Source: Desulfomicrobium sp. ZS1 (GTDB lineage: Bacteria > Desulfobacterota > Desulfovibrionia > Desulfovibrionales > Desulfomicrobiaceae). Taken from it: DNA of 64,000 nt. The translations under genes were made by a program, and so were the position numbers. A model generated the notes under the pieces. That model was not told where the DNA came from. It saw only the letters and a program-made list of their open reading frames with translations, and ran no database searches. Within the stretch, counting starts at the first letter, position 1; each line of letters opens with the position of its first letter. The stretch is taken from positions 186,001 to 250,000 of the forward strand of contig NZ_CP100351.1 in NCBI RefSeq assembly GCF_024204645.1, read 5' to 3'. Below, one piece after another: positions 1,824 to 5,580 of the stretch.

Positions 1824-2770
1824 GCCTGACGGAGTTGTGGGCGCAGATTCTCTGGCCGCTGTGCAAACTCATCGGCCTTGTGTCCGTAGGGCTTTTTGTC
1901 GGCAACCTGATCGAGGCCATGCACTGGACCCGTTTCATGGCTCGGCTGGCCAATCCTCTGACCCGCATCGGGCGCATGTGCGAAATCTCGGCGGCCAGTT
2001 TCTCCGTGGCCTTTGTTTCCGGCGTCACGGCCAACACCATGCTGGCCGAGGCCTATGACCAGGGCAAGCTGTCCCGCCGCGAACTCATCCTGACCAACCT
2101 CTTCAACAGCCTGCCGACCTACTTCCTGCATCTGCCGAGCATGATCTTCATCACCGTGCCCATCCTCAAGTCCGCAGCCGTGGTCTATCTGGGCCTCACC
2201 GTGGGCGCGGCCCTGCTGCGCACGGTGCTGATTCTTTTCATCGGGCGGATTCTGCTTACCGGGATCGACCGCTGCCATGCCATGGACCTGCCCGCCGAGG
2301 AAAAGCTTGTGGCGCGTCAGGTGCTGGAGAAGACCTGGAAGCGTTTCCGGCGGCGCATCAAAAAGATCGTCATGATCACCGCCCCCATTTATGTCGGCGT
2401 GCACTTCATGAACAAGTTCGGGATGTTTACGGCGGTCGAGCATTTTCTGGCCGAGCACATGAGCGCCATGTCCTGGCTGCACCCGAAAGCCGTGGGCATC
2501 ATTGTCTTTCAGCTGGCCGCCGAGTTCTCCGCAGGCATGGCCGCCGCCGGGGCATTGCTTGACGCGGGCTCCATGTCCGTGCGCGATGTGGTCATCGCCC
2601 TTATTGTCGGCAATGTCCTGTCCTCGCCCATGCGCGCCTTTCGGCATCAGTTCCCCTACTACGCAGGCATCTTTAAACCGAAGTTGGCCCTGGAACTCAT
2701 CATCTGCAGCCAGGGCTTCCGCGTGGCCAGCCTGATCTTCTGCGGGGCGGTGTATTACTGGGTAAGTTGA
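1820..2770 (+). CDS. Nucleoside-recognition (Gate) domain membrane protein
   Basis: This 316-residue polytopic membrane protein has two Gate-like halves. The first covers roughly residues 15-140 and includes a VSGVTANTMLAEAYDQGKLS segment. The second covers roughly 185-310 and includes AEFSAGMAAAGALLD and IVGNVLSSPMRAFRHQFPYY. This duplicated layout is typical of the nucleoside-recognition/Gate superfamily found in nucleoside transporters and in spore-maturation proteins SpmA/SpmB. The substrate cannot be told from sequence. It overlaps the VanZ-like gene by four bases and forms a two-gene unit with it. Confidence 0.75.
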   Translation: MSLTELWAQILWPLCKLIGLVSVGLFVGNLIEAMHWTRFMARLANPLTRIGRMCEISAASFSVAFVSGVTANTMLAEAYDQGKLSRRELILTNLFNSLPTYFLHLPSMIFITVPILKSAAVVYLGLTVGAALLRTVLILFIGRILLTGIDRCHAMDLPAEEKLVARQVLEKTWKRFRRRIKKIVMITAPIYVGVHFMNKFGMFTAVEHFLAEHMSAMSWLHPKAVGIIVFQLAAEFSAGMAAAGALLDAGSMSVRDVVIALIVGNVLSSPMRAFRHQFPYYAGIFKPKLALELIICSQGFRVASLIFCGAVYYWVS

Positions 2771-2786
2771 GCGGAAAGAGAAATCT

Positions 2787-2814
2787 AAAACTTCGAACTT
2801 AAAACTTAAAACTT
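2787..2814. repeat. Four tandem AAAACTT-type heptamers
   Basis: Four 7-bp units follow one another: AAAACTT, CGAACTT, AAAACTT, AAAACTT. They begin 17 bases after the stop of the nucleoside-recognition gene. This is a clear AT-rich island in GC-rich surroundings. Function unknown; it could be a protein-binding array or slippage product. Confidence 0.7.
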
Positions 2815-2960
2815 AAGACAAGAATCATTTTCCTGAACGACACGCGGCCCGCTGGGGGCATGGCCTTGAGGCCCGCCGGAACTCCCGCGCGGGCCTCGTA
2901 GAGTTGAATCGTTGCGTGCAGGGCGGTAAATTTATGGCAGCGCGTCAGGCAACGATTCAA

Positions 2961-3148
2961 CAAACGATGCCTGGCTCGGTCAAACAGCCGACGGGTCTCA
3001 AGACCATGCCCCCAGCGGACCTTGAGGCCCCTCGGGATCTTTTTGCCTTTGACGGGCAGGGGGACTCCCCCCTTGCGTACCGCCACAAGCGAGTCGGCGT
3101 GGTCCGGACAAGGGCTGTCGGCTGTCTGACTGAGCCGGGCATCGTTTG
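2961..3148. mobile_element. MITE-like 188-bp element with 37-bp terminal inverted repeats
   Basis: The left end (2961-2997, beginning CAAACGATGC) is repeated in inverted form at the right end (3112-3148, ending GCATCGTTTG) with six mismatches in 37, three of them within the outer 32. The interior has no gene. Parts of the interior recur inverted nearby: 3000-3018 matches the reverse complement of 2849-2867 at 18 of 19 bases, and 3089-3113 matches that of 3237-3261 at 23 of 25. This fits a non-autonomous mobile or repetitive element plus decayed copies. No target-site duplication is obvious, so the mobile reading is an inference. Confidence 0.5.
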
Positions 3149-3304
3149 CTTCCCGGCCGCCTGTCGTGAAGTGTGAACAATCTCCTTCCCTCAAGGCCGG
3201 GAAGCATTACGAGGCCAGCGAAGGAGTTCCGACAGACCTTGTCCGGGCCACGCCGACCCGCGCCCAATCTCAACGCGCCAAACCCCAAGGCTCCAAACAA
3301 AAAG

Positions 3305-3334
3305 AAAAACCCGGGGGGTTAGCCCGGGTTTTTT
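3305..3334 (-). terminator. Rho-independent terminator of the rimP-pnp operon
   Basis: An 11-bp perfect stem (3305-3315 with 3323-3333, AAAAACCCGGG/CCCGGGTTTTT) has a 7-nt loop. On the minus strand it ends in a T run and begins 14 nt past the pnp stop codon. The symmetry lets it work in both directions. Confidence 0.85.
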
Positions 3335-3347
3335 GTGATGGTTGTGT

Positions 3348-5558
3348 TTAGCGGCGTGGTCCGCCGCGATCGCCGCCGCGCGGTCTGTCCCCGCCGCGCG
3401 GCCTGTCGCTGCGCGGGCGGTCGGAGCGGGGCTGAACCGGCTCGGGCTCTTCGCCCAGTTCTTCGAGGATGATGGCCTTGCGGCTGAGCTTGATGCGTCC
3501 GGAAGGTTCGATGTCGATGACACGGACGCGGATGGCGTCGCCTTCCTGGACTACGTCCGTCACCACGTTGACGCGGTCACGGGCCAGCTGCGAGATGTGG
3601 CACAGGCCTTCAAGCCCGGGCAGGATCTCAATGAATGCACCGAAGTCCATGATCTTTTTGACGATGCCGTCATAGTCCTTATTCAGCTCGGCCTTTTGGT
3701 CGTAGTAAAGCACCATTTCCCGGGCCTTGGCCAAGGAGACGGAATCCGGGGCGAAGATGGAGATCTTGCCCGAATCGTCGATGTCGATGTCGGCCTTGGT
3801 TGCTTCGCAGATGGCTTTGATGTTCTTGCCGCCGGGTCCAATGACTTCGCGGATCTTGTCCTGCGAAATGTGCACGATGTCCATCTGCGGAGCAAACTTG
3901 GACAGTTCGCCTCTGGGCGCGGCGATAAGTGCTTCCATCTGATCGAGGATGTGTACGCGAGCGACTTTGGCCTGATGCAGGGCTTTCTGCATGACTTCGG
4001 CCGGGATGCCCGCGATCTTGATGTCCATCTGGATGGAGGTCACGCCGTCGCGGCTGCCCGCGACCTTGAAGTCCATGTCGCCCAAGTGGTCTTCGTCACC
4101 GAGGATGTCGGTCAGGACGAGGTATTCGTCGCCTTCCTTGATCAGGCCCATGGCGATGCCCGCGATGGGGGTCTTTATGGGTACGCCCGCGTCCATGAGC
4201 GCAAGGGTGCCGCCGCAGACGGAGGCCATGGAGGAGGAACCGTTGGATTCCATGATGTCGGAGACGACACGGATGGTGAACGGGAATGCATCCGGATCGG
4301 GCAGAACAGGATTCAGAGCCCGCTCTGAAAGAGCGCCATGGCCGATTTCGCGGCGACCGGGGGCGCGCAGCATGCGGGCTTCACCCACGCTGTACGGCGG
4401 GAAGTTGTAGTGCATCAGGAAGCGCCTGGATGTATCGCCGGCCAGGGTCTCGATGCGCTGCTCGTCGCGGGTGCTGCCGAGGGTGCATGTGCACAGGGCC
4501 TTGGTCTCGCCGCGCGTGAAGATGGCCGAGCCATGGGTGCGGGGCAGAAAACCCACTTCCATGATCAGGGGGCGGACCGTGGTCAGGTCGCGGCCGTCGA
4601 TGCGGATCTTGTCGGTCATGATGCGCTGGCGGACGATCTTCTTCTCCAGCTTTTCCATGATCTCGCCAACGCCCCGGATTCGTTCGGGAGTCTCGGCGTA
4701 CTTAGCCACCAGGGCTTCCATCAGATTCTGCTTGACCTTCTTCTTGGCATCGCGGCGATCCATCTTGCCGGGCACCGCCAGGGCTTCGGTCAGGGGAGCG
4801 GTGGCAAGTGCGGCCACGGCTTCAATCAGTTCCGTGTCTTCGGTCGGGGGAGTGACCGTGAACTTCTCTCTGCCAAGCATCTTGCGCAGCTCTTCCTGGG
4901 CATCGAGCAGGGGGCCAAGCTGAGCGTGTCCCCAGGCTACGGCCTCGGTCATGATGTCTTCGGACAGGAACTGGGCTCCGCCTTCGACCATGACCACCGC
5001 GTCGCGCGAACCGGCCAGAATCATGTTCAGTTGGCTTGTGGCAAGCTCCGTGGCCGTGGGATTGAGGAGAAATTTTCCGTCGCGATAGCCCACGCGGATG
5101 GCCGCAATGGGACCGGCGAAGGGGATCTCGGAGATGTGCAGGGCCGTGGATGCGCCCAGCATGGCCAGGATGTCGGCGGAACGCTCCTTGTCCGAGGAGA
5201 TGACCGTGGCGATGACCTGGATCTCATTGGTGCAGCCCTTGGGAAAGAGCGGACGGATGGGGCGGTCCATGAGCCGTGAGGTCAGGGTCTCGTGCTCGCT
5301 GGGGCGGCCCACTTCGCGGCGAAAATAGTTGCCCGGTACGCGGCCGGCGGAATAGAGCATCTCCTGATAATTGCAGGTCAGGGGAAGAAAATCTACGACC
5401 CGGTCCAGGGCCTGATGAGTGGCCGTGACCAGAACGATGGTGTCGCCCCACTGCACGGTTACGGCACCGCTGGCCTGCAGCGCGAGCTTGCCGTGTTCGA
5501 TGATGATTTCACTGTCGCCCATGGGGATGGTGCGTCTGGTGGTCTGAAAAGCTGCCAT
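3348..5558 (-). CDS. pnp: Polyribonucleotide nucleotidyltransferase (PNPase)
   Basis: PNPase degrades RNA 3' to 5' by phosphorolysis. The 736-residue product has two RNase PH-like halves, a KH domain (IREVIGPGGKNIKAI) and an S1 domain (DYDGIVKKIMDFGAFIEILP). It ends in an Arg/Gly/Asp-rich tail built from RSDRP and RGGDR repeats, longer than in many homologues and probably an RNA-binding extension. Of several possible starts I chose ATG 5558, which has GAGG six bases upstream. It is the last gene of the operon, behind rpsO, with a long hairpin in the 181-base gap. Confidence 0.97.
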   Translation of the reverse strand: MAAFQTTRRTIPMGDSEIIIEHGKLALQASGAVTVQWGDTIVLVTATHQALDRVVDFLPLTCNYQEMLYSAGRVPGNYFRREVGRPSEHETLTSRLMDRPIRPLFPKGCTNEIQVIATVISSDKERSADILAMLGASTALHISEIPFAGPIAAIRVGYRDGKFLLNPTATELATSQLNMILAGSRDAVVMVEGGAQFLSEDIMTEAVAWGHAQLGPLLDAQEELRKMLGREKFTVTPPTEDTELIEAVAALATAPLTEALAVPGKMDRRDAKKKVKQNLMEALVAKYAETPERIRGVGEIMEKLEKKIVRQRIMTDKIRIDGRDLTTVRPLIMEVGFLPRTHGSAIFTRGETKALCTCTLGSTRDEQRIETLAGDTSRRFLMHYNFPPYSVGEARMLRAPGRREIGHGALSERALNPVLPDPDAFPFTIRVVSDIMESNGSSSMASVCGGTLALMDAGVPIKTPIAGIAMGLIKEGDEYLVLTDILGDEDHLGDMDFKVAGSRDGVTSIQMDIKIAGIPAEVMQKALHQAKVARVHILDQMEALIAAPRGELSKFAPQMDIVHISQDKIREVIGPGGKNIKAICEATKADIDIDDSGKISIFAPDSVSLAKAREMVLYYDQKAELNKDYDGIVKKIMDFGAFIEILPGLEGLCHISQLARDRVNVVTDVVQEGDAIRVRVIDIEPSGRIKLSRKAIILEELGEEPEPVQPRSDRPRSDRPRGGDRPRGGDRGGPRR

Positions 5559-5580
5559 AGTATGCCTCATGATGGTTTGG

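Follow-up and report, generated by a model that had tools for sequence, protein, structure and literature searches.

The window, a 64,000-nucleotide stretch of the Desulfomicrobium sp. ZS1 genome (G000), contains at 2842–3262 two separate hairpin elements of ~180 nt, A and B, which lie in opposite orientation, as resolved by their repeat arms and by folding. Both are placed between the convergent 3' ends of a plus-strand gene (1820–2770), which has no NCBIfam match at 1e-10, and of pnp, the PNPase gene on the minus strand (3348–5570). In agreement with an earlier note on this DNA, which put the repeats at the end of the pnp operon, the minus strand carries NusA, IF-2, S15 and PNPase, identified in this order. 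Between pnp and B lies a Rho-independent terminator-like hairpin of pnp (3305–3333, minus strand), outside the element, and the 3' end of pnp contains a tandem 18-nt repeat (3370–3405) that encodes an Arg/Gly-rich tail behind the S1 domain. A scan of 2700–3400, around A and B, found no sigma-70 promoter-like site.

Element A (2842–3022, minus strand) is a long hairpin, recognised by folding and repeat arms, with an outer stem, a conserved core, an inner stem and a loop; its strand was set by G.U tolerance, and by analogy with other copies its full extent is ~2833–3040, the ends being uncertain. Its arms, 2846–2879 and 2988–3021, match at 30 of 34 positions. Conserved columns place the 5' core strand (CUGUYUGACYGAGCC..AUCGUU) at 2963–2987 and the 3' core strand (UACGAGGCCNGCGARGGAGUUYC) at 2878–2900, both on the minus strand, and in the latter GCGCGGGAG stands in place of the GCGARGGAG found in most copies. 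The inner stem and loop occupy 2903–2961 (minus strand), where 2903–2918 pairs with 2946–2961 as judged by the inverted repeat and by covariation in helix 4. Element B (3089–3262, plus strand), likewise a long hairpin by folding and arms, belongs to the same family and has another inner-stem type; its arms, 3089–3121 and 3229–3261, match at 30 of 33 positions, its conserved 5' and 3' core strands lie at 3122–3146 and 3208–3231, and its inner stem and loop at 3147–3206, with 3147–3158 pairing with 3195–3206 as an inverted repeat (all on the plus strand). The covariance model R1, described below, matches A at genome positions 188866–189003 (window 2866–3003) and B at 189106–189242 (window 3106–3242).

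The best inverted 32-mer match within 2842–3262 reaches 29 of 32, against a maximum of 25 in 100 dinucleotide shuffles, and folding of 2840–3270 yields two separate long hairpins (z = −11.3; none of 100 shuffles equally stable). Folded singly on their presumed RNA strands, A and B give z-scores of −7.9 and −8.3, unequalled in 200 shuffles each. This architecture changes how the repeats are to be read. The earlier note had described a 188-bp element with ends at 2961–2997 and 3112–3148, flanked by decayed copies. The inverted match of 31 of 37 between these segments was reproduced on recount, but it compares the same core strand in two opposed elements and not the ends of one element; the proposed unit joins halves of A and B, its ends being the same arm of both, and the supposed decayed neighbours are the other arms of the same two elements. 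Accordingly, the inverted pieces seen at 2849–2867 and 3237–3261 are real and form parts of the longer arms given above. The palindromic nature of the DNA, as the note proposed, explains the open reading frames on both strands.

A dispersed hairpin family with a conserved core

A BLAST search at DNA level returned 134 pieces from G000. R1, built from 32 copies, gave 56 matches at 0.01, three of which are weak reverse-strand matches to other copies, leaving 53 copies (weakest E-value 7e-5), so that the sequence indeed recurs; some copies stand in tandem arrays with units of ~240–296 bp, one array at genome 657.7 kb having three copies. At loci around arrays in this genome (such as L008, L012 and L023), other dispersed palindromes adjoin the hairpins: GGGGTGCAGGGG..CCCCTGCACCCC with GCCGGAGGCA; CACCCCTCCTTGGCAGGAGGGG; and ATTCCCGCCTGCGCGGGAATGAC. 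R1 matches occur in 23 of the 61 genomes searched, G000 included. The family is present in 11 of 16 genomes of the window's genus, with at least 3 to at least 53 copies among the matches listed per genome (at most 54 candidates scored in each), in every one of eight genomes sampled from a second genus and in a single genome from each of four further genera. With a broader model, R2 (26 sequences), three second-genus genomes have 75 (G024), 79 (G041) and 7 (G029) copies, and in a thin sample of the phylum, with the best eight candidates per genome scored, 3 of 395 genomes match including G000, among them two AT-rich carriers outside the order.

Named records matching a scan for the core pattern come from Desulfomicrobium and unclassified relatives. 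A core-pattern scan of viral contigs found no match, and neither A nor B matched plasmid and phage collections or any of 4227 Rfam families at gathering score, the latter giving only sub-threshold chance matches. A literature search, with most subscription journals outside its scope, found no description of this hairpin family, and the available text of a 40-genome survey of stem-loop repeat families contains neither Desulfo- nor Geobacter (PMC2267715).

On the presumed RNA strand, family members consist of an outer stem of ~34 pairs (mean 33.6 in 50 copies), followed by the conserved core, then by an inner stem of ~13 pairs and by a loop that varies. The sequence of the outer and inner stems is free to vary while complementarity is kept: 91.6% of alignment cells are paired, 226 cells are double-changed where shuffles have a mean of 66, and slid stem alignments never exceed 45% paired. 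The family core reads CUGUYUGACYGAGCC..AUCGUU in its 5' strand and UACGAGGCCNGCGARGGAGUUYCG in its 3' strand, and an asymmetric internal loop holds most of the invariant columns. A T-A/C-G pair in the core co-varies in 30 of 32 copies, apparently flanked by two tandem G.A steps. CUGUYUGA and GAGUU are kept even in the most distant relatives listed (seven loci), except for one copy starting with UUGU. We considered a standard kink-turn reading of the core; the tandem G.A pairs and the 3-nt asymmetry would fit it, but the pairing expected beside the bulge does not.

MITE ends and target duplications in a related genus

How the family spread is best seen in G024, a genome of the second genus, in the same order. 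Of its 75 copies, 61 were examined, and 52 of these have both 13-bp terminal inverted repeats (TIRs), GTAACTAYTCAGC, at no more than 4 of 13 mismatches per end; the elements are ~223 bp long, most measuring 222–225 bp end to end. Target duplications of 8 bp flank 29 of the 52 (19 exact and 10 at 7 of 8), and when left flanks were paired with right flanks of other G024 copies as a control, no pair reached 7. TIRs together with target duplications indicate that the family spread by transposase-type insertion. Its members are also dispersed, non-coding and numerous (53 in G000, 75 in G024, 79 in G041), and the hairpin family is a MITE family. At least one G024 copy has another end type, a longer end CAGGGCAATTTTG.. 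with a 10-bp duplication. At L224 (G024 C12:63207), L072, L077 and L078 the ends are a longer repeat, CAGGGCAWTTTTGTTCTCAC, some with a GTAAC-like stretch just inside; these copies carry the same hairpin core within a second type of end. In addition, G024 has paired 13-bp TIRs 150–174 bp apart, with no hairpin-core match among the matches listed (C1:292845-293018, C2:148780-148929 and C15:58423-58588), which are probably shorter elements mobilised by the same enzyme.

IS66-type MITEs have GTAA ends and 8-bp duplications, and the family resembles them in both respects. The IS66 transposase (PF03050, at 1e-10) is found in 4 of 10 genomes, but we reject it as the mobiliser: it has no match in the rich carriers G024 and G041 (75 and 79 copies) or in G029 (7 copies), nor in G053, G015 and G007. 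A search for an autonomous partner by exact 13-mer TIRs in G024 and G041 gave none that was convincing; in each of the five plus-to-minus TIR pairs 0.5–8 kb apart, the first TIR belongs to a short element that has a nearer partner of its own.

Palindromic sequence, high copy number and strand specificity would also suit an element of the retron, group II or RAYT type, moved by a reverse transcriptase or by a Y1 transposase. Y1_Tnp/RAYT has no match in G003, G008, G014, G041 and G053 (6–53 copies), and RVT_1 none at 1e-5 in G001, G007, G012, G014, G015 and G041 (21–53 copies), some of these assemblies being incomplete. Presence of Y1 and reverse transcriptase genes thus does not follow copy number, and both were rejected as mobilisers; TIRs with target duplications fit neither. 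As a general mechanism this explanation is refuted unless the gene was lost repeatedly, and we consider it extremely improbable. REP/BIME sequences are intergenic palindromes; from those that go with RAYT the present family differs in its length of ~180–223 bp, its TIRs and target duplications, and its lack of dependence on Y1_Tnp. G000 itself has three equal-scoring reverse transcriptase genes with 500 aa frames (C1 1681818, 2421866 and 2687292), which are likely to have arisen recently by copying of one mobile intron or retroelement.

Age of the copies in Desulfomicrobium

In Desulfomicrobium, the copies look old. When the 53 copies of G000 were compared with the G015 loci available for comparison, 42 matched the surroundings of a G015 copy on both flanks, six on neither, and five on one side or in a split fashion. 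Target duplications were not seen by eye in Desulfomicrobium copies, and TIRs are not recognisable in them. We found no clean empty site in the genus; in both differences examined, an old copy has been partly deleted, G015 having lost element B via a deletion between GCCAC repeats, and only outer remnants being left in G015 and G007 at the site at genome position 2584987. Arrays differ in copy number. The Desulfomicrobium copies are thus mostly common in place to the two species and seem immobile.

At the pnp 3' end, copies occur in 6 of the 14 genus genomes with at least 1.2 kb fetched (G000, G015, G007, G013, G002 and G001), and the models have no match there in the other eight (G003, G004, G005, G006, G009, G011, G012 and G014, at least 1.2 kb each). 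G010 has no match in the ~340 bases at its pnp 3' end, and G008 has no pnp match. In two small hairpin-free genomes (L149 in G011, L150 in G006), the sequence after pnp is unlike that of copy-rich genomes.

The earlier note had weighed a MITE moved by a transposase in trans against a family of structured repeats, and both alternatives hold in part. The MITE class is borne out by clear TIRs and 8-bp target duplications in the related genus, but the boundaries proposed were wrong, neither target duplication nor recent movement was seen in Desulfomicrobium, and the IS66, Y1 and TIR-pair searches yielded no transposase acting in trans. Copies retained at the same sites in close relatives, with compensatory changes, speak for structured repeats. 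Conservation of this kind in all relatives, which the note had named as refuting its reading, holds only in part: at the pnp end copies are present in the six genomes listed, and 8 of 14 have no model match there.

Substitutions are filtered for pairing on one strand

If no strand were selected, strand symmetry would make the numbers of G.U and A.C juxtapositions in the stems equal. The outer stems of 50 G000 copies (the core could not be located in three of 53) contain 1507 Watson-Crick pairs and, counted on one strand, 106 G.U against 15 A.C (binomial p 5e-18); 42 G015 copies give 82 against 10 (binomial p 3e-15). Copies in the minority replication orientation share the asymmetry, with G.U:A.C at 15:2 and 8:0, which argues that replication-linked mutation bias is not the explanation. 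In G024, the standing asymmetry is weaker (53:23 overall; 30:13 in young and 17:10 in older copies).

Changes that occurred in place follow the same rule. Among 24 orthologous copies of G000 and G015 with both flanks matching, single changes distinguish a Watson-Crick pair from G.U in 41 cases and from A.C in 8 (p 2e-6), and of the double changes 10 keep pairing and 2 involve a non-pair; a further 22 single changes distinguish it from other mismatches, which shows that the stems do decay. One locus (1150444) supplies 4 of the 10 paired doubles, leaving six without it. With G015 as reference, the counts are 40:8, with 10 paired doubles and 3 others. The result is similar in the larger sets from which the 24 were drawn. 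The 28 orthologous pairs, with 3541286 skipped (stems not located), give 47:9 and 21 paired doubles; 26 copies, also without 2701681 (an array member of doubtful orthology with nine double changes), give 44:9 with 12 paired doubles and 2 not; and the set of 24 further leaves out 903670 and 2800501, which match on one flank only. Stem substitutions since the split of the two species have been filtered for pairing on one strand, with G.U kept, A.C avoided and double changes compensatory. Judging from these patterns, the constraint most likely acts on a one-strand hairpin, as RNA.

A simpler account would be a functionless, decaying MITE whose arms stay complementary through template switching during replication. 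Such switching between hairpin arms could generate compensated doubles without selection, and several of those observed are two transversions, as it could give; insertion with TIRs and target duplications in G024 and losses by partial deletion at two sites are likewise what a plain MITE would show. Template switching, however, has no preference for G.U over A.C, seen here both in place (41:8) and in standing stems (106:15), and it should erode the asymmetric internal loop, the site of most invariant columns. The G.U bias therefore disfavours this account, template switching explaining the compensation only, and we regard it as unlikely.

Orientation and gene context

Chromosome arms of G000 and G015 were assigned by the GC skew of fetched loci. 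In 45 of 53 G000 copies (33 of 41 sites with arrays merged) and in 37 of 42 G015 copies (32 of 37 sites), the strand presumed to be the RNA is directed against the fork; in the skew-positive arm of G000 the count is 28 to 1, the lone departure being element B. With local skew in G024, 33 of 45 informative copies agree, 16 being too weak to call, as do young copies with target duplications (18 of 22 informative, or 18 to 4). This orientation bias could stem from an insertion bias or from strand-dependent loss.

Replication orientation brings in a further explanation, in which the selected structure is a strand-specific hairpin of single-stranded DNA that a recombinase, or else the machinery of replication or repair, would recognise. 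One strand of the integron attC site is recognised as a hairpin in this manner, and G.T, G.A and G.G are the better tolerated mismatches in DNA. The mismatch tolerance of the family would fit: in 42 majority-orientation G000 copies, purine-purine mismatches outnumber pyrimidine-pyrimidine ones by 43 to 6 on the same strand. The orientation counts of G000 and G024 would fit as well. Yet in most copies the tolerant strand is the leading-strand template and not the exposed lagging-strand template, and minority-orientation copies have the same asymmetry. Moreover, insertion with TIRs and target duplications does not need folded single-stranded DNA, and a DNA hairpin would not account for the constraint on stationary copies. 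We judge this possibility very unlikely.

Gene context, obtained with a codon-usage gene finder made for this analysis and with every array member counted, is convergent for 24 of the 53 copies and divergent for 2; 12 are co-directional in sense and 11 in antisense orientation, and 4 were not assigned. The abundance of convergent over divergent sites would be expected of a BIME-like 3'-end element that stabilises or attenuates neighbouring mRNAs. Co-directional sites, however, have no sense preference, and this 12:11 ratio argues against a simple role as a 3' untranslated region. In the neighbour-strand test, which took in 48 of 53 copies, the asymmetry persists in the 10 copies whose presumed RNA is antisense to both neighbours (19:5), and pnp already has a terminator-like hairpin ahead of B, making a 3'-end function quite unlikely. 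By eye, no conserved promoter lies upstream of the copies.

Discussion

Taken together, the data make it probable, in our view, that A and B are both old members of a dispersed family of non-autonomous DNA transposons (MITEs) of Desulfovibrionales, whose one-strand hairpin has been retained as a MITE-derived RNA. The family spread by transposase-type insertion, with the transposase presumably supplied in trans, and its copies look immobile in Desulfomicrobium, where arrays vary in copy number and partial deletions have removed some of them. The G.U-tolerant strand would be transcribed to give a hairpin RNA of ~180 nt, in which the conserved asymmetric internal loop CUGUYUGA/GAGUU may be a binding site for a protein or a processing site. 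Such RNAs may have been kept much as BOX repeats were in pneumococci or ERIC repeats in enterobacteria.

BOX of Streptococcus pneumoniae is likewise a multi-copy small repeat with a predicted RNA stem-loop, an old spread and slow present insertion, and some of its copies have open frames on both strands, as here (PMC3049150). BOX differs in its modular boxA-B-C structure, in sequence and in host, and several BOX copies have been shown to be transcribed (PMC3049150). ERIC, Correia/NEMIS, YPAL/RU-2 and the Caulobacter CIR repeats are also small repeats of mobile type with long RNA stem-loops close to genes, but are ~100–170 bp long, with other termini and without GTAACTAYTCAGC ends (PMC2229807). 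Set against these repeats, the Desulfovibrionales family is marked by its conserved asymmetric core.

A more far-reaching extension, which we offer as a tentative speculation rather than an expectation, is that these are widespread domesticated transposon RNAs: 50–80 loci per genome might each produce a long hairpin RNA presenting the tandem-G.A motif to a dedicated protein, each copy being selected singly long after movement ended. The core would then be carried by different ends and in distant lineages and, set against replication, may have a chromosome-wide role. The orientation relative to replication, seen also among young G024 insertions, makes replication-coupled insertion or strand-dependent loss directly testable. 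Finally, we note that the count of wobble asymmetry names the functional strand without RNA data and may be applicable to other bacterial repeats. The family thus pairs a clear MITE anatomy with in-place evidence that single, immobile copies are constrained as a one-strand fold.
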